Below are positions 151-62,641 of a stretch of DNA of 64,000 bases, in pieces. A program made the translations under genes and the position numbers. Below the pieces are notes generated by a model. It did no database searches. It was not told where the DNA came from and worked only from the letters and a program-made list of their open reading frames with translations. Source of the stretch: Rubrivivax gelatinosus (lineage in GTDB: Bacteria > Pseudomonadota > Gammaproteobacteria > Burkholderiales > Burkholderiaceae_C); NCBI RefSeq assembly GCF_004340905.1, contig NZ_SLXD01000011.1:62001-126000 (forward strand). Reading direction: 5' to 3'. Numbering within the stretch: position 1 is the first letter of the stretch; each line of letters starts with the position of its first letter.

Positions 151-202
151 CGCCTGCCCGCGCCGTATGCTCGGCGGCGTTCCCCCCCTCGCCGACCTCT
201 TC

Positions 203-1477
203 ATGCTCGTTCGCAACATCACCCTGCCCGACGGCCGCAGCGGCCTGGACCTGCTGGTCCAGGACGGCCGCATCGCCGCCCTCGGCCCCGCGCTCTCCGC
301 GCCCGAAGGCACGCCGGTCGTCGACGGCGGCGGCTGGCTCGTCAGCCCGCCTTTCGTCGACGCGCACTTCCACATGGACGCGACGCTCAGCTACGGGCTG
401 CCGCGCATCAACGCCAGCGGCACGCTGCTCGAAGGCATCGCGCTGTGGGGCGAGCTCAAACCGCTGCTGACGCAGGAGGCGCTGGTCGAACGGGCGCTGC
501 AGTACTGCGACTGGGCGGTGGCGCGCGGCCTGCTGGCGATCCGCAGCCACGTCGACGTCTGCGACCCGCGGCTGCTGGCCGTCGAGGCGCTGCTGGAGGT
601 GAAGAAGCGCGTCGCGCCCTATCTGGACCTGCAGCTCGTCGCCTTCCCGCAGGACGGCGTGCTGCGTTCGCCGGGTGCACTCGCCAACCTGGAGCGTGCG
701 CTGGACCTGGGTGTCGACGTCGTCGGCGGCATTCCGCACTTCGAACGCACGATGGCGGACGGGGCGGCGAGCGTGAAGCTGCTGTGCGAGATCGCCGCGC
801 GCCGCGGCCTGCGTGTGGACATGCACTGCGACGAGAGCGACGACCCGCTGTCGCGCCATGTCGAGACGCTGGCTTACGAGACCCAGCGCCTGGGCCTGCA
901 GGGCCGCGTCACCGGCTCGCACCTGACGTCGATGCACTCGATGGACAACTACTACGTCAGCAAGCTGCTGCCGCTGATGGCCGAGGCCGGGCTGCACGCG
1001 GTGGCCAACCCGCTGATCAACATCACGCTGCAGGGCCGCCACGACAGCTATCCGAAGCGCCGCGGCATGACGCGGGTGCCCGAGCTGCTGGCGGCCGGCG
1101 TCAACGTCGGCTTCGGCCACGACTGCGTGCTCGACCCCTGGTATTCGCTCGGCTCGGGCGACATGCTGGACGTGGCGGCGATGGGGCTGCACGTCGCGCA
1201 GATGACCTCACAGGCCGGCATGCGCCAGTGCTTCGACGCGGTGACGGTGAACAACGCGCGCATCCTGGGGCTGGAGGGCTACGGCCTGGAGCCCGGCTGC
1301 CGCGCCGACTTCGTGCTGCTGCAGGCGCGTTCGCCCGCCGAGGCGATCCGGCTGCGCGCCCAGCGCCTGCTGGTGGTGCGTGGCGGCCGGGTGCTGTCGC
1401 GCATGGCGCCGGCCAGCGCCGAGCTGTCGCTGCCGGGGCGGCCCGTGACCGTGGATTTCACGCTACAACGTTCCTAG
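203..1477 (+). CDS. codA: Cytosine deaminase-type amidohydrolase
   Basis: This is a metal-dependent amidohydrolase of about 424 residues, the size of E. coli CodA, which deaminates cytosine to uracil. The H-x-H metal motif is DAHFHMD (His55/His57 from this start). Later come SHVDVCD, the HCDE block and GHDCVLDPW, in the order seen in cytosine deaminases. I start at ATG 203 (MLVRNITLPDG) because the first conserved beta strand begins there; an in-frame ATG at 167 would add 12 unlikely residues. It follows upp directly, which supports cytosine or a related pyrimidine/creatinine-like ring as substrate. Exact substrate is not proven by sequence. Confidence 0.85.
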   Translation: MLVRNITLPDGRSGLDLLVQDGRIAALGPALSAPEGTPVVDGGGWLVSPPFVDAHFHMDATLSYGLPRINASGTLLEGIALWGELKPLLTQEALVERALQYCDWAVARGLLAIRSHVDVCDPRLLAVEALLEVKKRVAPYLDLQLVAFPQDGVLRSPGALANLERALDLGVDVVGGIPHFERTMADGAASVKLLCEIAARRGLRVDMHCDESDDPLSRHVETLAYETQRLGLQGRVTGSHLTSMHSMDNYYVSKLLPLMAEAGLHAVANPLINITLQGRHDSYPKRRGMTRVPELLAAGVNVGFGHDCVLDPWYSLGSGDMLDVAAMGLHVAQMTSQAGMRQCFDAVTVNNARILGLEGYGLEPGCRADFVLLQARSPAEAIRLRAQRLLVVRGGRVLSRMAPASAELSLPGRPVTVDFTLQRS

Positions 1478-53422: not shown

Positions 53423-53863
53423 TCAGCTCGACGCGCGGCGCTTGAGCCAGCGCATCGCGGCGCCGACGGCGGGCAGCTTCTCGTACAGCTCCTCGGCGGC
53501 GTCCCAGTAGTCGCGGTGCAGCGCGACGCGGCCGTCGGCGGCAAAGCGCAGGTGCGTGGCGCCGCGGATCGTCTGCTCGCCGCGCACGAAACGTTTCATG
53601 CGGTAGTGCATGTCCCAGGTCAGGAAACACTGGTCGCCCGCGGCCACCGCCTCGTGCACGACGAAACGCGGTGCCTCCAGGGTGCGGAACATGTGCTCGA
53701 AGATCGCCGCGATCGCCGGCACGCCGCGCACCTCGTTGAACGGGTCCTTGAACACGGCCTCGGCGGCGTAGACCTCGCCCAGCCCCGCCAGCGCGGCCGG
53801 CGACAGCGTCTCGAAGGCCTCGACGAGGCGCTGCACGCGCGGATCGGGATGCGGGCTCTTCAT
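53423..53863 (-). CDS. NTF2/SnoaL-like protein
   Basis: A 146-residue cone-fold protein: RVQRLVEAFETLSPAALAGLGEVYAAEAVFKDPFNEVRG, then CFLTWDMHYRMKRF and IRGATHLRFAADGRVALHRDYWDAAEELYEKLP. This is the NTF2-like protein that accompanies SDR, FAD-oxidoreductase, DUF1365 and Cfa-type genes in many proteobacteria. Activity unknown. It is the last gene of the operon, two bases after the SDR stop, and starts at ATG 53863. An upstream frame to 53938 is antisense-type noise. Confidence 0.87.
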   Translation of the reverse strand: MKSPHPDPRVQRLVEAFETLSPAALAGLGEVYAAEAVFKDPFNEVRGVPAIAAIFEHMFRTLEAPRFVVHEAVAAGDQCFLTWDMHYRMKRFVRGEQTIRGATHLRFAADGRVALHRDYWDAAEELYEKLPAVGAAMRWLKRRASS

Positions 53864-53865
53864 CG

Positions 53866-54651
53866 TCACAGCCCGGTGGAGCGCCGCACCGCGGCGAAGT
53901 ACGGCCCGTAGCCGACGTGGCGCAGCGCCTTCAGCCACAGCGTGAATCGGCGCGGGAAGTGGATCTCGAAGTCGCCGCGCGCCCAGCCGCGCAGCATGGC
54001 CTCGGCGGCTTCGTCGGGGGTCAGCAGCGCCGGCATGCGGAAACCGTTCTTGGCCGTCAGCGGCGTCTCGACGAAACCCGGGTTGACGATGGACACGCCG
54101 ACGCTGGCCGGGTGCAGGTCCAGGTACAGCGTCTCGGCGAGGTTGATCAGCGCCGCCTTCGTCGGCCCGTAGGCCAGCGACTGCGGCAGGCCGCGATAGC
54201 CGGCGACGCTGCCGACCAGGCTCAGGTGCGCGCCCTGGCCCGCGGCGGCGCGGGCACGCATCGCCGGCAGCAGCGCGTCCAGCCAGTGCAGCGCGCCGAC
54301 GTAGTTGACCTGCACGTGGTGCAGCGCGAGGTCCAGGTCGAAGGCGGTGGCGCGCATCGGCGTGTAGGTGCCGGCACAGTACAGCGCCAGGTCCGGCGTG
54401 CCGCTCTGTGCGATCACCTGCCTGGCGGCGGCCTGCACCGCGGCGCGGTCGGTCACGTTCAGCGGCAGGGCGACACTGCCCGGATGGGCGGCGACGAAAC
54501 GCGCCAGCGCGTCGGCGTCGCGCGCCGAGACGGTGACACGCGCACCCAGCGCGTGCAGCCGCGAGGCCGTGGCGCGGCCGATGCCGGTGGAGGCGCCGAC
54601 CAGCCAGGCGCTGCGGCCCTGCCAGTCGCGCAGCGGAGGGTTCAGGGGCAT
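53866..54651 (-). CDS. Short-chain dehydrogenase/reductase
   Basis: A 261-residue classical SDR: cofactor motif LVGASTGIGRATASRL, the NAG-like motif as LYCAGTYTP, catalytic Ser in LVGSVAGYRG, Tyr-x-x-x-Lys as YGPTKAALINLAE, and IVNPGFVETPLT. The Arg at the end of strand 2 (VSARD) favours NADP(H). It is the conserved SDR of fatty-acid modification clusters, and its substrate is unknown. It follows the DUF3833 gene after five bases. Confidence 0.9.
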   Translation of the reverse strand: MPLNPPLRDWQGRSAWLVGASTGIGRATASRLHALGARVTVSARDADALARFVAAHPGSVALPLNVTDRAAVQAAARQVIAQSGTPDLALYCAGTYTPMRATAFDLDLALHHVQVNYVGALHWLDALLPAMRARAAAGQGAHLSLVGSVAGYRGLPQSLAYGPTKAALINLAETLYLDLHPASVGVSIVNPGFVETPLTAKNGFRMPALLTPDEAAEAMLRGWARGDFEIHFPRRFTLWLKALRHVGYGPYFAAVRRSTGL

Positions 54652-54656
54652 GGTGT

Positions 54657-55184
54657 TCAGCGTTTGTGGAAGGCGAGCGTGACCTCGCCCAGGCGCACGC
54701 CGAACTTGCTCATCTCGGCCTTGTTCAGCATGACCTTGTCGTCCATCTGGAACATCCAGTCGTCGAACTGGACCTCGTAGACGCTGCCGTCGACCGGCAG
54801 CTTCAGCGTGTAGCGCCAGTTCAGCGCGTTGCCGGCGGCCGTGCCCTGGGCGACGCCGACGACGTCGTCGGCGCGGCCCTCGTAGCGCCCGCCGCCCAGC
54901 GACTTGAGCTTCCAGACGCGGCGCTCGGTCTTGCCGTCGCTGTAGGTGAAACGTTCGTCGAGCACGCCGTCGTCGCCGGTCCAGGTGCCGGTCATCTGCA
55001 CCGTGAAGCGGCGCACGACCTTGCCCGAACGGTCGCTGAAGATGCCGTGCGCCGTCATCTCGCCGTCGAAGAAGGTCTTCAGGTCGAGCTTCGGGGTCTC
55101 GGCGGCGTAGTCGGCGGGCGTCGGGCCGGCGCAGCCGGCCAGTGCCGCCGCGGCGGCCAGCCCGAGCAGCAGGCGTCGGTTCAT
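54657..55184 (-). CDS. DUF3833 lipoprotein
   Basis: A 175-residue lipoprotein: signal MNRRLLLGLAAAAALAGC with lipobox Cys18, then YAAETPKLDLKTFFDGEMTAHGIF, DRSGKVVRRFTVQMTGTW and NWRYTLKLPVDGSVYEVQFDDWMF, as in DUF3833 (lipocalin-like). These proteins occur beside Cfa-type methyltransferases and may bind a lipid product. Start ATG 55184 overlaps the MFS stop by four bases. Confidence 0.87.
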   Translation of the reverse strand: MNRRLLLGLAAAAALAGCAGPTPADYAAETPKLDLKTFFDGEMTAHGIFSDRSGKVVRRFTVQMTGTWTGDDGVLDERFTYSDGKTERRVWKLKSLGGGRYEGRADDVVGVAQGTAAGNALNWRYTLKLPVDGSVYEVQFDDWMFQMDDKVMLNKAEMSKFGVRLGEVTLAFHKR

Positions 55185-56479
55185 CGTGGGTTCTCCTCGT
55201 CGAGTCGGTGCCGCCAGCGCCACAGCAGCACGGCGGCGGCGGTCTTCAGCACACAGGGCAGCAGGCAGTAGGCGGCGGTGAGCGCCGCCAGCGCCTGGGG
55301 TTCACGGGCGCCGGGCGCGTAGCCCAGCAGCCCGAGCAGCGGCAGCGCCAGCCCGGCGGCCAGCGCCAGGTTGAGCTTGGTGGCCAGGTTCCACCAGCCG
55401 AAGTACGCGCCTTCGCCGCCGCCGTGCCCGGCGCGGCGCACGATGCCGGCGAGCAGCGCGCCGGGCAGCGCCAGGTCGGCGCCGAGCGCCACGCCGCTGG
55501 CGATGCAGACCGCGGCGAAGCCGGCGGTGTCGCCCTCGCCCAGCGTCGCCGCCCAGACGAAGGCCGCGACGGCCAGCGCCATGCCGGCCAGCCAGGCGCC
55601 GGCCAGGCCCAGACGCGGCACGAGCCGCACCCACAGCGGCATCGCCAGCGCCCCGGCGGCGAAGTAGGCGGCCAGGAACACCGGCTCCCAGGCCGGTGCC
55701 TGCAGCCGGTCGCGCACGAAGAACAGCACCAGCGTCGCCGGCACCGCGCTGGCGATGCCGTTGACGAGGAAGACGGCGAGCAGGCGGCGGAAGGCCGGTG
55801 TCGCCAGCGGGGCGCGCCACTCGACCCGGGCCGCGGCCGGCGTCGCCTCGGCGCGCGGCGCGCCGGCCAGCAGCACGAGGCCGACCACCAGCGTGACGGC
55901 GAAGACGGCGCTGGTGGCCGGCAGCCCGGCCGTCGACGGCAGCACGCTGGCCACCAGCACGCCGGCCAGCGCCAGGCCTTCGCGCCAGGAGACGATGCGC
56001 GCGCGCACCGCGGCGTCGCCGCCCAGCCGCGCACCCCAGGCCTGGTGCAGCACCGAGAGCAGGCTGTAGGCCAGGTAGGCGGCGACGAGCAGTGCCGCGC
56101 ACCAGGCCAGCAGCGCCGTGCCGCCGGTCACCGGCGGGAAGAACAGGCCGTGGAAGGCCGCCGCCAGCAGCACCGCCGCTGCCGAGGCGACGGCCAGCAG
56201 CCGCGCCGGCGAGCCGGTGAACAAACGGTCGACGAGGCGGCCCAGCGCCGGGTCGATGACGGCGTCGAGCCCGCGCACGGCCAGAAGCAGCGCCCCCAGC
56301 GTCGCCAGCGGCACGCCGTACGTGGCAGCGTAGTGCGGCGGCAGCAGCACGTACAGCGGCAGCGCGACGAAGGCCAGCGGCAGGCCCAGCGCGCCATAAC
56401 GCAGGCCGTCGCCGAGGCCGCCGCGCCAGCGCGGCGCCGCGGCTCCGGGCCCGCGTGCGTCCAGGCCCGCAGTGTTCAT
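55181..56479 (-). CDS. MFS transporter, GPH (sugar:cation symporter)-like
   Basis: A 432-residue protein with about 12 hydrophobic segments. The start RYGALGLPLAFVALPLYVLLPPHYA and the segments DAVIDPALGRLVDR and SWREGLALAGVLVASVLP are those of the glycoside-pentoside-hexuronide branch. This transporter regularly sits in Cfa/DUF3833 clusters, so a lipid-related cargo is more likely than a sugar (inference). ATG 56479 overlaps the chalcone-isomerase-like gene by four bases. Confidence 0.87.
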   Translation of the reverse strand: MNTAGLDARGPGAAAPRWRGGLGDGLRYGALGLPLAFVALPLYVLLPPHYAATYGVPLATLGALLLAVRGLDAVIDPALGRLVDRLFTGSPARLLAVASAAAVLLAAAFHGLFFPPVTGGTALLAWCAALLVAAYLAYSLLSVLHQAWGARLGGDAAVRARIVSWREGLALAGVLVASVLPSTAGLPATSAVFAVTLVVGLVLLAGAPRAEATPAAARVEWRAPLATPAFRRLLAVFLVNGIASAVPATLVLFFVRDRLQAPAWEPVFLAAYFAAGALAMPLWVRLVPRLGLAGAWLAGMALAVAAFVWAATLGEGDTAGFAAVCIASGVALGADLALPGALLAGIVRRAGHGGGEGAYFGWWNLATKLNLALAAGLALPLLGLLGYAPGAREPQALAALTAAYCLLPCVLKTAAAVLLWRWRHRLDEENPR

Positions 56480-57015
56480 GCCGTCTGCCCGAACAGTCGC
56501 GCGCGCAGCGTCGGCTGCGAGGTCTGCGGTGCCAGCCAGATGCCGAAGAAGCGGCGGCCGAACTCGGTGTCGTCGACCTCGCCCAGGCGGCGGCCGTTGG
56601 CGTAGAAACGCGTGCCGCCGTCGGTGCGGCGCACGCCGACCAGGCGGTCGCCGGGCTTCACGTCGGGGAACAGTGCCGCCATCGCCTGGCGCCAGCGCTG
56701 CGCCTGCGGCTCGGGCAGTTCGCCCTGGCGGCGCATTTCGTCCAGTGAGCGGGCGGCGATGTCCGAACCCTCGAAGGCGCGGGCGTAGCGGATCTCCAGC
56801 GCCAGCGGCGCGTCGGCCCAGCGTTCGGGCGTGAAGCCTTCGCCGACCCACAGCCGGGCGTCGTAGACGGCAAAACCCAGCACGCGCAGCCGGCCTTCGC
56901 CCTGCAGTGCCAGCGGCGCGTAGGCGGCAAGCTCGGGCGGCGCCGGCGTCCGGCCCGCGGCCGCGTACGCCGGGACCAGCGCGGCGGCGAGCAGGGCACG
57001 GCGGGCGTGGTCCAT
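56476..57015 (-). CDS. Exported chalcone-isomerase-like protein
   Basis: A 179-residue protein with a hydrophobic leader (ALLAAALVPAYAAAG). The core LRVLGFAVYDARLWVGEGF, LALEIRYARAFEGSDIAARSLDEMRRQG and DRLVGVRRTDGGTRFYANGRRLGEV ... FGRRFFGIWLAP matches the chalcone-isomerase-like family. The FFGIWL ending is diagnostic. Bacterial members bind fatty acids or lipids rather than flavonoids. It starts immediately after the cfa stop. Confidence 0.83.
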   Translation of the reverse strand: MDHARRALLAAALVPAYAAAGRTPAPPELAAYAPLALQGEGRLRVLGFAVYDARLWVGEGFTPERWADAPLALEIRYARAFEGSDIAARSLDEMRRQGELPEPQAQRWRQAMAALFPDVKPGDRLVGVRRTDGGTRFYANGRRLGEVDDTEFGRRFFGIWLAPQTSQPTLRARLFGQTA

Positions 57016-58239
57016 TCAGGCACGGCGCAGCGTGAACTGCACGACGTCGGTGTTGCCGGTGGCGAAGGCCGCCTCGCAGTACGCGAGGTAGAACTCCCAG
57101 ATGCGCACGAAACGCGTGTCGAAGCCCTGGCCGCGCACCGCGTTCTCGTTGGCCAGGAAGGCGACGCGCCAGCGGCGCAGCGTCTCGGCATAGTCGGCAC
57201 CGAAGGCGAGTTCGCCGACGACCTCCAGCCCCGCCTTGCGCGCCTCGGCGCGGAAGGCCGACGCGCTGGGCAGCAGGCCGCCGGGGAAGACGTACTGCTG
57301 GATGAAGTCGGTGGAACGCAGGTAACGCGCGAACAGGTCGTCGCGGATCGTGATCGACTGGATGCAGGCGCGGCCGCCGGGCTTGAGCCGGTCGCGCACG
57401 GTGCGGAAGTAGCTGCCCCAGTACTCGCGGCCGACGGCCTCGAACATCTCGATCGAGACCACGGCGTCGAAGGGGCCGTCCTGGATGTCGCGGTAGTCCT
57501 GCAGCCGCAGGTCGGCCCGGGTGCCCAGGCCCAGGCGCGTCAGGCGCTCGCGGGCATAGGCCAGCTGCTCGGTCGACAGCGTGACGCCGGTGACGCGGGC
57601 GCCGAACTCGTTGGTCGCGGCCTCGGCCACCGCGCCCCAGCCACAGCCGATCTCGAGCACGCGGTCGCCGGCACGCACGCCGCACTCGCGCAGCGCGCGC
57701 CGCACCTTGGCGCGCTGGGCCTCGGGCATGGGCTTGGCGGTGTCGCCGTCGAACCAGGCGCTCGAGTAGTTCATCGTCTCGTCGAGCCAGAGACGGTAGA
57801 ACGGGTTGCCCAGGTCGTAGTGGGCGTGGATGTTCTTGCGGCTGCCGCGGCGCGAGTTGCGGTTCAGCAGGTGCTTCAGGCGGTGCGCCAGCGAACCCCA
57901 CCAGCGGCCGTAGATCGCGTCCTCGACCGCGTCGCGGTTGGCGATGAACAGCCGCAGCAGCGCGACCACGTCGGGCGAGGTCCACTGGCCGTCGATGTAG
58001 GCTTCGGCGAAGCCGATGTCGCCGCTCTTCAGCGTCGCCGAGCAGACGTTCCAGTCGAGCAAACGCATCGACGCGCGCGGCTCGCCGTCGCGGCCGGTGC
58101 CGAAGTGGGCCAGGCTGCCGTCGGGCAGCTGCACGTCCAGCTGCCCGACGGCCAGCCGGCGCAGCAGGCGGAATACGGTGCGGGCCGCCGCGGGGGCGGA
58201 TTCGGGCAGGGCGAAGGCGTTGGCGGTCGTCGTCGTCAT
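57016..58239 (-). CDS. cfa: Cyclopropane/furan-type fatty-acid SAM methyltransferase
   Basis: A 407-residue CFAS-family enzyme that adds a methyl(ene) group from SAM to phospholipid acyl chains. SAM motif LEIGCGWGAVAEAA, the family's HYDLGNPFYRLWLDETMNYSSAWF, then SIEMFEAVGREYW and FIQQYVFPGGLLPS. The active-site cysteine region and C-terminal Tyr/Glu residues are present (VRIWEFYLAYCEAAF). Whether the product is a cyclopropane or a methylated precursor of furan fatty acids cannot be told from sequence. The FAD oxidoreductase and DUF1365 neighbours occur with both. It starts at ATG 58239. Confidence 0.93.
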   Translation of the reverse strand: MTTTTANAFALPESAPAAARTVFRLLRRLAVGQLDVQLPDGSLAHFGTGRDGEPRASMRLLDWNVCSATLKSGDIGFAEAYIDGQWTSPDVVALLRLFIANRDAVEDAIYGRWWGSLAHRLKHLLNRNSRRGSRKNIHAHYDLGNPFYRLWLDETMNYSSAWFDGDTAKPMPEAQRAKVRRALRECGVRAGDRVLEIGCGWGAVAEAATNEFGARVTGVTLSTEQLAYARERLTRLGLGTRADLRLQDYRDIQDGPFDAVVSIEMFEAVGREYWGSYFRTVRDRLKPGGRACIQSITIRDDLFARYLRSTDFIQQYVFPGGLLPSASAFRAEARKAGLEVVGELAFGADYAETLRRWRVAFLANENAVRGQGFDTRFVRIWEFYLAYCEAAFATGNTDVVQFTLRRA

Positions 58240-58253
58240 GGCGGTTCCTGGAA

Positions 58254-59015
58254 TCAGCGGGTCGTGAAGGCCCGGGGCGGCTCGGGCTTGCTGATGAACG
58301 GCACGCGCTTGAGCCACAGCTGCAGCGCCTGCCAGTGGATGCGCACGATGACGCCCAGGGACATCATCGGCATGCCGAAGAAGGCCGCGCGGGCGGCCTT
58401 CGCGGTCAGCGGGGCGAGGCGGCCGCTGACGCTCGTCAGCAGCAGCGGGCCCTCGTCGTCGTCGTGGTCGACACGCGCCACCGTGCGCTCGGCGGTGCGC
58501 AGGAAGCGGAAGCGGTAGCGGCCCTCGACACGGCAGAACGGCGAGACGTGGAAGACCTTGCGCGCGACGAGCTCGCGGCCCCAGCGCAGGTCCTCGCCGG
58601 CGAGCAGGTAGCAGTGGCGCTCGCCGAAGGTGTTGTTGACCTCGGCGACGATCGCCGCCAGCGAGCCGTCGCGGCGCTCGCAGTACCAGAAGCTCACCGG
58701 CTTGAAGACGTAGCCCAGCACGCGCGGGTAGGTGTGCAGCCAGATCTCGCCGTCGGCGTCGGCGATGCCTTCGGCGGCGAGCAGCTCCTCCAGCCAGGCG
58801 AGCGAGTCGGCGCGGCCGTCGCCGTGGTCGGCGTCGTGGAAGGCGACGAGGCCGAAGCGGTTGCGCCGCACCGCGGCCTCGGGCTGCGCCCGCAGCCGGC
58901 GCATCGGCAGCAGCATGAAGTAGGTCGGGTACTCGAAGGTGTGCCCGGCCGGCTTCAGGCGCCGGTGGCGCACGACACCGGTGCCCAGCAAGGCCTGCGG
59001 GGTGGCGCCGTCCAT
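58254..59015 (-). CDS. DUF1365 protein
   Basis: A 253-residue protein of the DUF1365 family: GVVRHRRLKPAGHTFEYPTYFMLLP, WLHTYPRVLGYVFKPVSFWYCERRDGS, EVNNTFGERHCYLL and KVFHVSPFCRVEGRYRFRF. DUF1365 always goes with the preceding FAD-protein and the Cfa-type methyltransferase and is thought to help modify acyl chains; its reaction is unknown. The ATG overlaps the FAD gene stop (ATGA) and cfa follows after 14 bases. Confidence 0.92.
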   Translation of the reverse strand: MDGATPQALLGTGVVRHRRLKPAGHTFEYPTYFMLLPMRRLRAQPEAAVRRNRFGLVAFHDADHGDGRADSLAWLEELLAAEGIADADGEIWLHTYPRVLGYVFKPVSFWYCERRDGSLAAIVAEVNNTFGERHCYLLAGEDLRWGRELVARKVFHVSPFCRVEGRYRFRFLRTAERTVARVDHDDDEGPLLLTSVSGRLAPLTAKAARAAFFGMPMMSLGVIVRIHWQALQLWLKRVPFISKPEPPRAFTTR

Positions 59016-60307
59016 CACGCCGCCTCTTGCAGCGCCGGGCGGCCGGCCTGCCAGTGCGCACGCAGCGAGCGCACCACGTCCAGCGCCGAGGCCAGGCCGT
59101 CCTCGTGGAAGCCGTAGCGTGTCCAGGCGCCGCAGAACCAGGTGCGGGCGCGGCCCTGCAGCGCCGGCACGCGGCGCTGGGCCTCGATCGCGGCGAGGTC
59201 GAACACCGGGTGCGCGTACTCGATCTCGCGGAACACGGTGCCCGGCGCGGGCTCGGTGACGGGGTTCAGCGAGACGATGACCGGCGTCGTCCAGGGCAGC
59301 GGCTGCAGCCGGTTGAGCAGGTAGTGCAGGCAGACACCGGCCTGTTCGCGGCCGCGGTCGGGCGAGCGCACGTAGTTCCACGAGGCCCAGGCCAGCTTGC
59401 GCCTGGGCAGCGCGGTGGCGTCGGCGTGCACGACGGCGCGGTTGGGCTGGTAGCGGATCGCGCCGAGCACGGCGCGCTCGTCGTCGCTGGCGTCGGCCAG
59501 CAGCGCCAGCGCCTGGTCGCTGTGGCAGGCGAGCACGACCTCGTCGAAACGCTCGGTGCCCGCCGGCGACGTGACGGCCACGCCCTCGGCGTCGCGACGG
59601 ATCGCGGACACCGGGCTCGAGATGCGCGCGTCGGCGATGCGCGGCAGCATCTTCTCGACGTAGTTCCGGGCGCCGCCCTTGACCGTGTGCCACTGCGGAC
59701 GGTCGTTCACCTGGATGAGCCCGTGGTTGTGGCAGAAGCGGATCATCGTCGCCACCGGGAAACGCAGCATCTGGTCGGTCGGGCAGGACCAGATGCAGCC
59801 GATCATCGGCAGGAAGTACCAGTCGCGGAAGTCGTTGCCGAAGCCGTGGCGGTCCAGGAACTCGCCGATCGGCTCGGCCAGCGCGTCCTCGGCCGCCGCC
59901 TCCGCGATCGCGGTCGCCAGGCGGTTGAAGCGCACGATCTCCGCGAGCATCTTCAGGAAACGCGGGCGCAGCAGGTTGCGGCGCTGGGCGAAGACCGTGT
60001 TCAGGTCCGAGCCGCTCCACTCGAGGTCGTGCTCGCGCGCCTGCACAGAGAACGACATGTCCGACGGCGCGGTCTCGACACCGAGCTCGGCGAACAGGCG
60101 CAGCAGGTTCGGGTAGGTGCGGTGGTTGAAGACCAGGAAGCCGGTGTCCACGCCGTGCGTGACGCCGTCGATGCGCAGGTCGATGGTGTTGGTGTGGCCA
60201 CCGAAGTAGTCGCCCGCCTCGAACAGCGTGACGCGCGCATCGGAGGACAGTTCGTAGGCTGCGGCCAGACCGGAGATCCCGGAGCCGACGACGGCGACGC
60301 GGCGCAT
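59015..60307 (-). CDS. FAD/NAD-binding oxidoreductase (amine-oxidase-like)
   Basis: A 430-residue flavoprotein with the dinucleotide motif VAVVGSGISGLAAAYEL ... LFEAGDYFGGHTNTIDL at the N-terminus, the NHRTYPNLLRLFAELG block and PIGEFLDRHGFGNDFRDWYFLPM. It belongs to the flavoprotein group that is always linked with DUF1365 and Cfa-type enzymes. Oxidation or desaturation of the acyl chain is inferred. Its ATG overlaps the TGA of the small upstream ORF (TGATG). Confidence 0.91.
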   Translation of the reverse strand: MRRVAVVGSGISGLAAAYELSSDARVTLFEAGDYFGGHTNTIDLRIDGVTHGVDTGFLVFNHRTYPNLLRLFAELGVETAPSDMSFSVQAREHDLEWSGSDLNTVFAQRRNLLRPRFLKMLAEIVRFNRLATAIAEAAAEDALAEPIGEFLDRHGFGNDFRDWYFLPMIGCIWSCPTDQMLRFPVATMIRFCHNHGLIQVNDRPQWHTVKGGARNYVEKMLPRIADARISSPVSAIRRDAEGVAVTSPAGTERFDEVVLACHSDQALALLADASDDERAVLGAIRYQPNRAVVHADATALPRRKLAWASWNYVRSPDRGREQAGVCLHYLLNRLQPLPWTTPVIVSLNPVTEPAPGTVFREIEYAHPVFDLAAIEAQRRVPALQGRARTWFCGAWTRYGFHEDGLASALDVVRSLRAHWQAGRPALQEAA

Positions 60308-60621
60308 CAGCGGCTCCCCACCGCGCCAGGCGCGTTCAGCGGGGCCTGGCCCCGGAGGGCCGGCGTACCGCGCGGGGCGGTACGTCGGGAAAGAAAGGCC
60401 GTCGTGCGGCGGCGCTGAGCGAACGAGGGAGGGAGGGAGGAGGAGGAGAAACGCTCAGGCTTGGCAGACAGGGAACCCGTGAGTCCGCACGACAGGAAAA
60501 CCGTGGCCGCGCTGGCGGCCTTCTTGCCCGCTGTGACCGGCGCCAGGGCGCAAAGTTCCGCAGCCGCGGCCTGCGGTGCTGGGCAGGAAACGATCCTGGG
60601 GATCGGCAAGGGCTTCGACAT
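60307..60621 (-). CDS. Small ORF at the head of the fatty-acid operon, unknown
   Basis: A 104-codon frame beginning at ATG 60621, preceded by GAGAGG at eight bases. It ends TGATG, overlapping the FAD gene start by one base, so it is placed for translational coupling. I do not recognise the product (MSKPLPIPRIVSCPAPQ, Ser/Pro/Arg-rich, no clear domain). Codon use is less GC3-biased than in its neighbours. It may be a real small protein, a leader frame that helps translate the FAD gene, or a chance frame. Confidence 0.4.
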   Translation of the reverse strand: MSKPLPIPRIVSCPAPQAAAAELCALAPVTAGKKAASAATVFLSCGLTGSLSAKPERFSSSSLPPSFAQRRRTTAFLSRRTAPRGTPALRGQAPLNAPGAVGSR

Positions 60622-60794
60622 CGTGTGAACCTCTCGGTATGCAACGCGACTATACAGTCATCTTTCGATGTCTGCAGTTCATCTCTTGGCTTTGACGAAG
60701 ACATGTCCTGTTCAAAACCGCGACTTGGACCTATATTAGGGCAGATTCAGAGAATTGGCATGTTTGTGTCCAGGACAAATACAAGGCGAGTGCG
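60622..60794. promoter_or_regulatory. Divergent promoter and operator region of CarH-like regulator and fatty-acid operon
   Basis: An AT-rich gap. Minus-strand promoter for the operon: TATAGT (60654-60649), 28 bases before ATG 60621. Plus-strand promoter for the regulator: TATATT (60732-60737). Two related boxes are TGTCCTGTTCA (60704-60714) and the perfect palindrome TGTCC-A-GGACA (60767-60777), 8 of 11 positions alike and 63 bases apart. The first lies about where the plus-strand -35 should be. They are the natural candidates for binding by the MerR-type protein encoded at 60795. Confidence 0.55.
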
Positions 60795-61733
60795 ATGAAT
60801 GACCGCAGTTCGGCCGACAAGCTGACGCTGTCCATCGCGGCTGTCGAGCGTGACACCGGCCTGAGCAAGGACACGCTGCGTGTGTGGGAGCGGCGTTACG
60901 GCTTCCCTTCGCCGGCGCGGGACTCGCAGGGCGAACGCGCCTACCCGCTGGAGCAGGTGGAGAAGCTCCGTCTCATCAAGCGCCTGCTCGATGCCGGCCA
61001 TCGGCCGGGCCGCATCGTCCCGATGCCGGCGAGCGAGCTCAACGAGCTCACCGCGTCCACCGTCGACCAGCCGCAGCGCAGTGCCGGGAACCCGGTGGTG
61101 GCGGCCGATCTGGAGCGTGCGCTGGACCTGTTGCGCAGCCACGATCCGGCCGGCCTGCGGCGCGAGCTCGGCCGCATGCTGGTGCGCCACGGCATCTCGC
61201 GTTTCGTCATCGATGTCGTCGCGCCGCTGAACACCGCGGTCGGCGACGCCTGGCTGCGCGGCCAGGTCGAGGTCTACGAGGAGCATCTCTACACCGAGAC
61301 CGTGCAGAGCCTGCTGCGCCAGGCGATCGCCTCGGTGCCGGAGCCGCTCGGCGGCGGTGCGCCGGCGGTGCTGCTGACCACCTTTCCCGGCGAGCCGCAC
61401 GGCCTGGGGCTGCTGATGTGCGAGACCCTGATGGCGATGGACGGCTGCCGCTGCGTCGCGCTGGGCACGCAGACGCCGCTGTGGGACGTGGTGCTCGCGG
61501 CGCGCAGCTACCGCGCCGACATCGTGGCGCTCAGCTTCTCCGGCTGCATGAGCCCCAACCAGGTGGTCGACGGCCTGAGCGAACTGCGCGAGAAGCTGCC
61601 CGCCGCCACCGAGCTGTGGGTGGGCGGCAGCGCGCCGGTGCTCTTCCGTCGCCGTGTCGACGGCGTGCTGCCGATCGAGGCGCTGGAGCACATCGGCATC
61701 GAACTGCGGCGCTGGCGCGACGCACGCGGCTGA
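60795..61733 (+). CDS. CarH/LitR-type MerR regulator with B12-binding domain
   Basis: A 312-residue light-sensor-type repressor. Residues 10-75 form a MerR HTH (LSIAAVERDTGLSKDTLRVWERRYG). Then come a helical bundle and a B12-binding Rossmann domain (about 188-305). Trp153, Glu163 and His164 form W-x9-EH, exactly as Trp131/Glu141/His142 of Thermus CarH. His202 in PGEPHGLGLLM is the lower cobalt ligand position, and the TPLWD and SFSGCMSP loops follow. AdoB12-loaded CarH tetramers repress in the dark and fall apart in light. Divergent from the fatty-acid operon, which is its likely target. ATG 60795. Confidence 0.88.
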   Translation: MNDRSSADKLTLSIAAVERDTGLSKDTLRVWERRYGFPSPARDSQGERAYPLEQVEKLRLIKRLLDAGHRPGRIVPMPASELNELTASTVDQPQRSAGNPVVAADLERALDLLRSHDPAGLRRELGRMLVRHGISRFVIDVVAPLNTAVGDAWLRGQVEVYEEHLYTETVQSLLRQAIASVPEPLGGGAPAVLLTTFPGEPHGLGLLMCETLMAMDGCRCVALGTQTPLWDVVLAARSYRADIVALSFSGCMSPNQVVDGLSELREKLPAATELWVGGSAPVLFRRRVDGVLPIEALEHIGIELRRWRDARG

Positions 61734-61801: not shown

Positions 61802-62641
61802 ATGCTGTATCCCGAACTCTTCAAGCAGCTCGAAGCCGTGCGCTGGAATCTCGACACGGACATCCCGTGGCAGAGCTTCGACGCCGCCTGCCTCAGCGAC
61901 GAGCAGGCGCAGACCATCAAGATGAACGCCATCACCGAGTGGGCGGCGCTGCCGGCCACCGAGATGTTCCTGCGCGACAACCGCGGCGACAGCGACTTCT
62001 CGGCCTTCATCAGCGTCTGGTTCTTCGAGGAGCAGAAACATTCGCTGGTGCTGATGGAGTACCTGCGGCGCTTCCGCCCCGAGCTCGTGCCGACCGAGGA
62101 CGAGCTGCACGCGGTGCGCTTCGAGTTCGACCCGGCGCCGGCGCTGGAGACGCTGATGCTGCACTTCTGCGGCGAGATCCGGCTCAACCACTGGTACCGC
62201 CGCGCCGCCGAATGGCACACCGAGCCGGTCATCAAGGCGATCTACGAGACGCTGGCGCGCGACGAGGCGCGCCACGGCGGCGCCTACCTGCGCTACATGA
62301 AGCGGGCGCTCGTGCGCTGCGGCGACGAGGCGCGCACGGCCTTCGCCAAGGTCGGCGTGCTGATGGCCAGCGCACGCCGCACCGCGCAGGCGCTGCACCC
62401 GACCAACCTGCACGTCAACGCCAGCCTGTTCCCCAACGACACGGTGCAGAGCCGCCTGCCCGACCCGGCCTGGCTCGAAGCCTGGCTGGACCGCCAGATC
62501 CGCTTCGACGCCGACTGGGAAGGCCGCGTCGTCGAACGCATCCTGCACAACCTCGGCCTGCTGTTCGGACGCAGCTTCGCCAACGTCCAGGACCTCAACC
62601 GCTACCGCAAGGAACTGGGGCGCGGCGCCCAGCCGGCCTGA
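61802..62641 (+). CDS. Ferritin-like di-iron protein
   Basis: A 279-residue mostly helical protein. Carboxylate/histidine motifs occur in ferritin-like order: EWAALPATEMF (Glu), WFFEEQKHSLVLMEYL (EExxH), FCGEIRLNHWY (Glu) and LARDEARHGGAYLRYM (DExxH). They recall the EENRH/DEKRH ligands of acyl-ACP desaturases, so a di-iron oxidase or desaturase on acyl chains is possible. Its place behind the CarH-like gene is compatible with this. The family name usually given is ferritin-like or unknown. ATG 61802. Confidence 0.7.
   Translation: MLYPELFKQLEAVRWNLDTDIPWQSFDAACLSDEQAQTIKMNAITEWAALPATEMFLRDNRGDSDFSAFISVWFFEEQKHSLVLMEYLRRFRPELVPTEDELHAVRFEFDPAPALETLMLHFCGEIRLNHWYRRAAEWHTEPVIKAIYETLARDEARHGGAYLRYMKRALVRCGDEARTAFAKVGVLMASARRTAQALHPTNLHVNASLFPNDTVQSRLPDPAWLEAWLDRQIRFDADWEGRVVERILHNLGLLFGRSFANVQDLNRYRKELGRGAQPA

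Follow-up and report, generated by a model that had tools for sequence, protein, structure and literature searches.

A LitR/CarH-type regulator gene, a putative operator pair and a divergent ufaD-ufaO-ufaM-like operon in Rubrivivax gelatinosus: a candidate light switch for membrane lipids

Known B12 photoreceptors and furan fatty acid genes

To my knowledge, the role of furan fatty acids in bacteria and the normal trigger of their synthesis are still open. In Rhodobacter, the furan fatty acid 9M5-FuFA is the product of RSP1091 (UfaD), RSP1090 (the DUF1365 protein UfaO) and RSP2144 (UfaM); the Rhodopseudomonas homologues RPA2571-2570-2569, which stand in UfaD-UfaO-UfaM order, make furan fatty acid as well, and deletion of chrR in R. 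sphaeroides leads to more furan fatty acid (PMC7380195). A blue-light response with MerR, ChrR and CFA synthase has been described in Vibrio (PMC5241685).

LitR/CarH receptors that use adenosylcobalamin (AdoB12) are already known, as is a light-induced ufaM under a class II LitR (PMC9758184). A signature of the four elements GxxW, EH, GxxH and GxxxP has been proposed for light-responsive cobalamin domains (PMC11796333). Here I analyse a 64,000-nucleotide stretch of R. gelatinosus DNA, hereafter the window, in which the regulator gene litR lies divergent from an operon that begins with ufaD-, ufaO- and ufaM-like genes (Table 1).

Table 1. Features of the litR locus in window coordinates.
Feature	Coordinates	Strand	Remarks
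SnoaL-like protein	53423..53869	-	final gene of the conserved run
Short-chain dehydrogenase (SDR)	53866..54651	-	
DUF3833 protein	54657..55184	-	
MFS_2 transporter	55181..56479	-	searched as 55181-56476, one codon short of ATG
Chalcone-isomerase-like protein	56476..57015	-	
ufaM/CFA-synthase-like SAM-dependent methylase	57016..58257	-	as searched; first ATG at 58239
ufaO-like DUF1365 protein	58254..59018	-	
ufaD-like FAD-dependent protein (amine-oxidase family)	59015..60307	-	operon gene 1
Dyad pair	60626..60659		TGAACCTCTCGGT ... ACTATACAGTC; possible TetR-type site, operon side
O2, degenerate second copy	60701..60717		TGTCCTGTTCAAA; 14.9 bits; overlaps putative litR -35
Putative litR promoter	60709..60737	+	TGTTCA (3/6) -N17- TATATT (5/6); below simple-scan threshold
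Putative operon promoter	60733..60761	-	ATGCCA (4/6) -N17- TAATAT (4/6); shares -10 region with litR promoter
O1, operator-like palindrome	60764..60780		around TGTCCAGGACA; 21.7 bits; midpoint 23 bp upstream of litR start codon
litR, class-I-type LitR/CarH regulator	60795..61733	+	312 aa; ATG start; ORF confirmed
litR domains	residues 13-73; 106-175; 192-283		MerR HTH; B12-binding_2; B12-binding
litR signature residues	W153, L154, E163, H164, H202, G224xxxP228		
Conserved protein 3' of litR	61802..62641	+	weak FA_desaturase_2/AurF/ferritin-like matches; unit membership uncertain

The LitR protein and its divergent operon

An earlier reading of the sequence alone (the sequence-only reading) had taken the host for Rubrivivax-like, which agrees with LitR identities of 89% to Rubrivivax benzoatilyticus JA2 and 87% to R. 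gelatinosus. It had also assigned the litR reading frame to a CarH/LitR-type B12 photoreceptor, and W153, E163, H164 and H202 were found exactly at the positions it had claimed. The motif W-x9-EH occurred a single time in LitR and aligned to that of Thermus thermophilus CarH (TtCarH), and GEPHGLG made up residues 199-205. Over 282 aligned columns, LitR and TtCarH were 33% identical; W153, E163, H164 and H202 aligned to TtCarH W131, E141, H142 and H177, and all four SignatureFinder elements (GxxW153, E163-H164, GxxH202, and GxxxP228) were present in alignment with TtCarH. Across 81 aligned LitR homologues, the window's included, W153, E163 and H202 were kept in every sequence and H164 in 80, and G199, the glycine of GxxH, was retained in just 44.

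The MerR_1 (2.7e-13) and B12-binding_2 (PF02607, 2e-7) domains both scored over their Pfam cut-offs, and B12-binding (PF02310, 8.5e-6) reached 26.0 bits, below the cut-off of 32.1 bits. TtCarH was the best solved relative (3whp, 2.9e-26; 5c8d, 3.6e-26). An AF2 model built on the 81 sequences, with a mean pLDDT of 88.5, had DNA-bound TtCarH as its top PDB match (5c8e, E 3.3e-18), and its B12-binding domain taken alone gave a target-normalised TM of 0.84 to 5c8a. The best full-length chains reached a TM of only 0.54 (query) and 0.60-0.62 (target), which probably reflects a different placement of the HTH and B12 domains. With the signature complete, MerR_1 and B12-binding_2 over their cut-offs and TtCarH as the best structural match, the CarH/LitR-type identity was borne out; by sequence and predicted fold, LitR would be a B12 photoreceptor of this type and looks like a member of class I (AdoB12). 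LitR and Thermus CarH are not close orthologues, since the NCBIfam CarH equivalog NF052513 scored 123.3 bits, far under its 400-bit cut-off.

His132 of TtCarH, which caps the cobalt after illumination, aligned with Leu154 in LitR. None of the 81 sequences had His at this position (Met in 34, Ala in 17, Leu in 16, Ile in 9, Val in 2, Thr in 2, and Ser in 1), which sets LitR apart from CarH of the Thermus type, and the bis-His light state of Thermus is therefore unavailable to LitR. Because the light signature is complete, AdoB12 photochemistry would be expected of the protein; the Thermus light state would not. The TtCarH variant H132A is photolysed, yet it stays undissociated in light (PMC10442372). 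This lends weight to a different reading, in which LitR senses the level of AdoB12 or redox and not light, or else needs a LOV partner as class II proteins do; class II LitR is described as being inactivated by a LOV partner that acts on the HTH domain (PMC9758184). However, CtMerR, with Arg at the 132 position, is photolysed and its tetramers in solution fall apart into monomers (PMC11796333), and the B12-contact residues are conserved in LitR, unlike in class II, which is set apart by having no working B12-binding domain. I regard this reading as improbable.

To return to a light-sensing LitR, the monomerisation of CtMerR without His132 means that another dissociation route is possible. Light-driven tetramer dissociation, as foreseen by the sequence-only reading, can therefore not be assumed to follow the Thermus way and may follow another, as in CtMerR. 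Receptors without His132 are known singly (CtMerR); its systematic absence from the aligned sequences offers a natural experiment on whether B12 photoswitching requires the bis-His state. A supply of AdoB12 is plausible in the host, because its genome contains five cobalamin riboswitches and an AdoCbl adenosyltransferase that scored over cut-off. Two of the riboswitches, in opposite orientations, adjoin the adenosyltransferase gene (G000 C11:165140-167054), on the contig that also carries litR and ~43 kb away from it.

On Pfam domains and gene order, UfaD-, UfaO- and UfaM-like genes stand together at the start of the operon, with the same domains in the same order as RPA2571-2570-2569, to which they were compared by description. 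The methylase scored below every NCBIfam CFA cut-off, which fits UfaM without proving it. Judged from its domains and gene order, the operon probably makes furan fatty acids that protect the membrane. A light-induced operon for acyl-chain modification had been proposed from the sequence alone; its divergence from litR and its probable control by LitR found support, and the proposal can be sharpened to ufaD-ufaO-ufaM homologues with a LitR-associated operator pair. Homologues of the protein encoded 3' of litR lay directly after litR in 42 of 80 loci, and in 13 they were placed past the operon's distal end; they were 77-98% identical, in most cases a stronger conservation than that of the other members of the unit. 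A glutathione peroxidase gene was seen upstream of ufaD in 5 of 8 protein-scanned stretches without LitR (L166, L167, L173, L174, and L175), in line with a lipid-peroxide role.

The arrangement was found to be widespread. Among 80 named loci, three were unassessable (left flank <2 kb); a divergent ufaD adjoined litR in 74 of the other 77 and was missing in three, and all three ufa homologues were seen at 69 of the 80. A sample of 150 genomes of the family had DUF1365 in 111, LitR in 64 (of 83 with a match, 19 being excluded for a best match <50 bits) and ChrR in 14 (of 49 with any match, counted only over the curated cut-off). LitR and DUF1365 lay within 12 kb of each other in 51 genomes and were divergent in all 51, and ChrR lay within 12 kb of DUF1365 in 12 of its 14. 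A divergent TetR gene stood at most 12 kb from DUF1365 in 13 of the 48 genomes that carried DUF1365 and had neither LitR nor ChrR nearby, and in none of the 150 did two of these three regulators occur within 12 kb of DUF1365. The exclusivity of LitR and ChrR holds only at this limit: both were present somewhere in four genomes, and G097 had ChrR beside DUF1365 and LitR at ~13 kb.

A link to photosynthetic pigments, also suggested by the sequence-only reading, was weakened. The host has two adjacent Photo_RC genes, and LitR was enriched in the 26 of 150 genomes with Photo_RC (19 of 26 versus 45 of 124; Fisher p 8.5e-4, uncorrected for kinship). The link is not general, as 45 of the 64 LitR genomes lacked reaction-centre genes; photopigments are therefore not the general reason for LitR, and LitR as a general mark of phototrophs was rejected on this count.

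Outside Burkholderiales, plasmid pAZKH of Azoarcus sp. KH32C (L131) carried litR divergent from the same eight gene kinds; it was typed as mobilizable, and the litR-operon unit may thus move between lineages. Plasmids of Comamonas endophytica (L130) and Eleftheria terrae (L132) had litR without the ufa operon and with strong operator-like sites. One of these genes lay between methyl-accepting chemotaxis genes, near a BLUF-domain gene, the other was divergent from a fasciclin-domain gene, and both LitR may have other light-controlled targets. Two Burkholderia plasmid homologues matched LitR at residues 27-93 only.

Operator-like sites, promoters and a possible TetR-type input

The stretch 60622-60794, which the sequence-only reading had named for a DNA-binding test of LitR, does contain the operator-like sites O1 and O2. 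These palindromes (TTTGTCCWGGACAAA) have their centres 63 bp apart and bracket two putative overlapping promoters. Counts of gapped words in 81 intergenic regions gave TGTC-N3-GACA in 60 and TGTC-N5-CAAA in 64, versus 2 and 3, respectively, in one Markov-shuffled set. A 17-bp site matrix, trained on the same 81 regions that gave these first counts, found no site of at least 13 bits in the whole 64 kb besides O1 and O2. Pairs of sites (>9 bits) 62-65 bp apart were present in 38 of the 81 regions, and the other 7-bp bins tested held at most 4. A genome-wide search with TTTGTCCWGGACAAA, allowing up to two mismatches, returned two palindromic places, O1 and C12:125525; the latter is not claimed as a regulon site, as a reversed control pattern gave equally many matches.

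Held-out loci were drawn from 20 of the 64 LitR genomes, 10 of the 12 ChrR-linked ones and 10 of the 48 with neither regulator; the held-out LitR shared 45-52% identity with that of the window, as against 52-89% for the training loci, with overlap between the sets unchecked by name. A site of at least 16 bits was found in 17 of 20 LitR-linked loci, and in none of the 10 ChrR-linked or the 10 neither-regulator stretches, these controls being longer than the LitR-linked stretches; one neither-regulator stretch reached 13 bits. The pair, at 60-66 bp, recurred in only 6 of the 20 held-out LitR loci, and three had no site. Sites also preceded the plasmid-borne litR genes of Comamonas (20.1 and 17.4 bits), Azoarcus (22.9 and 20.8 bits, 74 bp apart) and Eleftheria (23.7 and 23.7 bits, 62 bp apart), and the best site of a Caballeronia homologue scored just 11.9 bits. 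The site goes with LitR and not with the operon, and is a putative operator. This association, and ligand residues that are invariant at 52-89% identity, argue for selection and against litR as a relic that is linked by descent and no longer light-responsive or regulatory, a reading to which I give very little credence.

A sigma-70 consensus scan of 60250-60850 that needed 9 of 12 matches found no promoter, and both putative promoters in the window score 8/12. The two nearest relatives (L046 and L047) had their best minus-strand hexamers elsewhere than in the window. Among the 38 paired regions, 26 had a -10-like hexamer pointing to litR that began 23-25 bp from the centre of O2, in most cases with a -35-like hexamer 17 bp away within O2. 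On the opposite strand, an overlapping -10-like hexamer was the best one in 22 of the 38, and TTGACN stood 17-18 bp from the opposite-strand -10, beside O1 and directed toward the operon, in 11. Taking the best hexamers per region, mean promoter scores were 8.2 and 7.8 of 12 versus 6.4 each after single-base shuffling of the DNA that separates the sites.

Since the site is tied to LitR and is present without the operon, before litR genes that adjoin no ufa genes, autoregulation alone could explain it. LitR would then, as a B12 photoreceptor, repress no promoter but that of litR; the operon would be under a TetR-type repressor acting in trans from the dyads on the operon side, and the linkage would reflect a stress role common to both. 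The TetR genes divergent from DUF1365 in the 13 genomes above favour such an arrangement, as does a host TetR homologue that is 58% identical and not linked to the operon (G000 C13:166679-167269). The dyad pair adds to this: in a looser pattern it occurred in 20 of 81 LitR-side intergenic regions versus a mean of 0.35 in shuffles, and the dyads, with up to one mismatch, were present in 5 of 10 neither-regulator stretches, 0 of 10 ChrR-linked ones and 2 of 20 held-out LitR-linked ones. The window's dyads (TGAACY-N4-RGT) resemble those before operons without LitR, with L172:1599-2240 among the places concerned, and a strict regular expression found the pair on the operon side of 1 of 81 regions, that of the window. 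However, in 22 of the 38 paired regions the O2-O1 pair with its overlapping -10 is directed at both promoters, and strict divergence, seen in all 51 linked cases, usually marks a local regulator. LitR and TetR could also act on the operon together, and from the dyads a TetR-type regulator may be a second input to it. Control of litR alone appears rather unlikely to me, and somewhat more credible than a LitR that senses AdoB12 level or redox or needs a LOV partner.

Proposed light switch and known systems

The explanation I favour, and consider likely, is dark repression of both litR and ufaDOM by AdoB12-bound, class-I-type LitR/CarH through O1 and O2, with release in light, so that light probably turns the lipid pathway on. 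In the dark, AdoB12 would be held through His202, its adenosyl group packed by Trp153 and Glu163, and the loaded LitR would occupy O2 and O1, which lie about six helical turns apart. This spacing would suit bridging or cooperative filling by LitR, and most likely the AdoB12-loaded oligomer does one or the other, possibly with looping of the DNA between the sites. Occupancy would close two overlapping divergent promoters, one serving litR itself and the other the ufaD-ufaO-ufaM operon. The Co-C bond would then be broken by UV, blue or green light, as in CarH proteins already described; once the adenosyl group was gone, the LitR oligomer would loosen without a bis-His state (Leu154), the operators would open, and the opened operon would yield furan or methylated fatty acyl chains and thereby membrane protection. 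It counts against this explanation that both O1 and O2 are closer to litR than to the operon.

In 51 of 150 genomes of the family the pathway has a photoreceptor gene as its neighbour, and most LitR carriers have no reaction centres; the cue that this predicts is light itself. The O1-O2 pair could be put to use in Proteobacteria as a small light-controlled switch. Among the papers listed in an open-licence library, the only CarH/LitR-furan link was ufaM in the Pseudomonas class II regulon, and I found there no LitR of the B12 type connected with a complete ufaDOM operon, no such operator pair and no lineage-fixed absence of His132. A wider proposal, tentative and on balance slightly doubtful, is that these receptors form a betaproteobacterial AdoB12 lineage without the bis-His state, which switches by adenosyl loss and directly controls furan fatty acid synthesis via a six-turn operator of two palindromes over overlapping promoters, with the operon passing, from lineage to lineage, among a light sensor (LitR), a sensor of photooxidative stress (ChrR) and a TetR repressor.

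A class III LitR of Burkholderia multivorans reportedly has a light-induced cfaB operon, photolyase and litS genes nearby. It is also betaproteobacterial, and its C-terminus is described as having no similarity to the functional domain (PMC9758184). The class II LitR of Pseudomonas (PplR and PmlR2) repress light-induced genes, including ufaM in P. putida, are thought not to bind B12 and act through a short LOV protein; their site is TRTACA-N12-TGTAYA, and the sites in P. mendocina, of another sequence than those found here, lie on the -35 and between TSS and ATG, a precedent for the layout proposed here (PMC9758184). The RSP1087-1091 operon of Rhodobacter sphaeroides has the same ufaD and ufaO genes as the operon here (PMC7380195), whereas its control differs: the Rubrivivax host genome had no ChrR match at E 0.001, and ufa control in R. 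sphaeroides is by the RpoE-ChrR sigma/anti-sigma pair.

CtMerR (8jbs) has the same signature as LitR and is a weaker match to it (4.9e-9) than TtCarH is, with Arg at the 132 position in contrast to the mostly hydrophobic residue here. TtCarH (5c8d/5c8e) has in common with LitR the MerR HTH and the two-part B12 region, the equivalents of W131, E141, H142 and H177, and the predicted fold. Its operator is described as three tandem 11-bp direct repeats (PMC8156234), whereas the sites predicted here are palindromes 63 bp apart, and TtCarH is linked to carotenoid genes, whereas LitR here is linked to a lipid operon.
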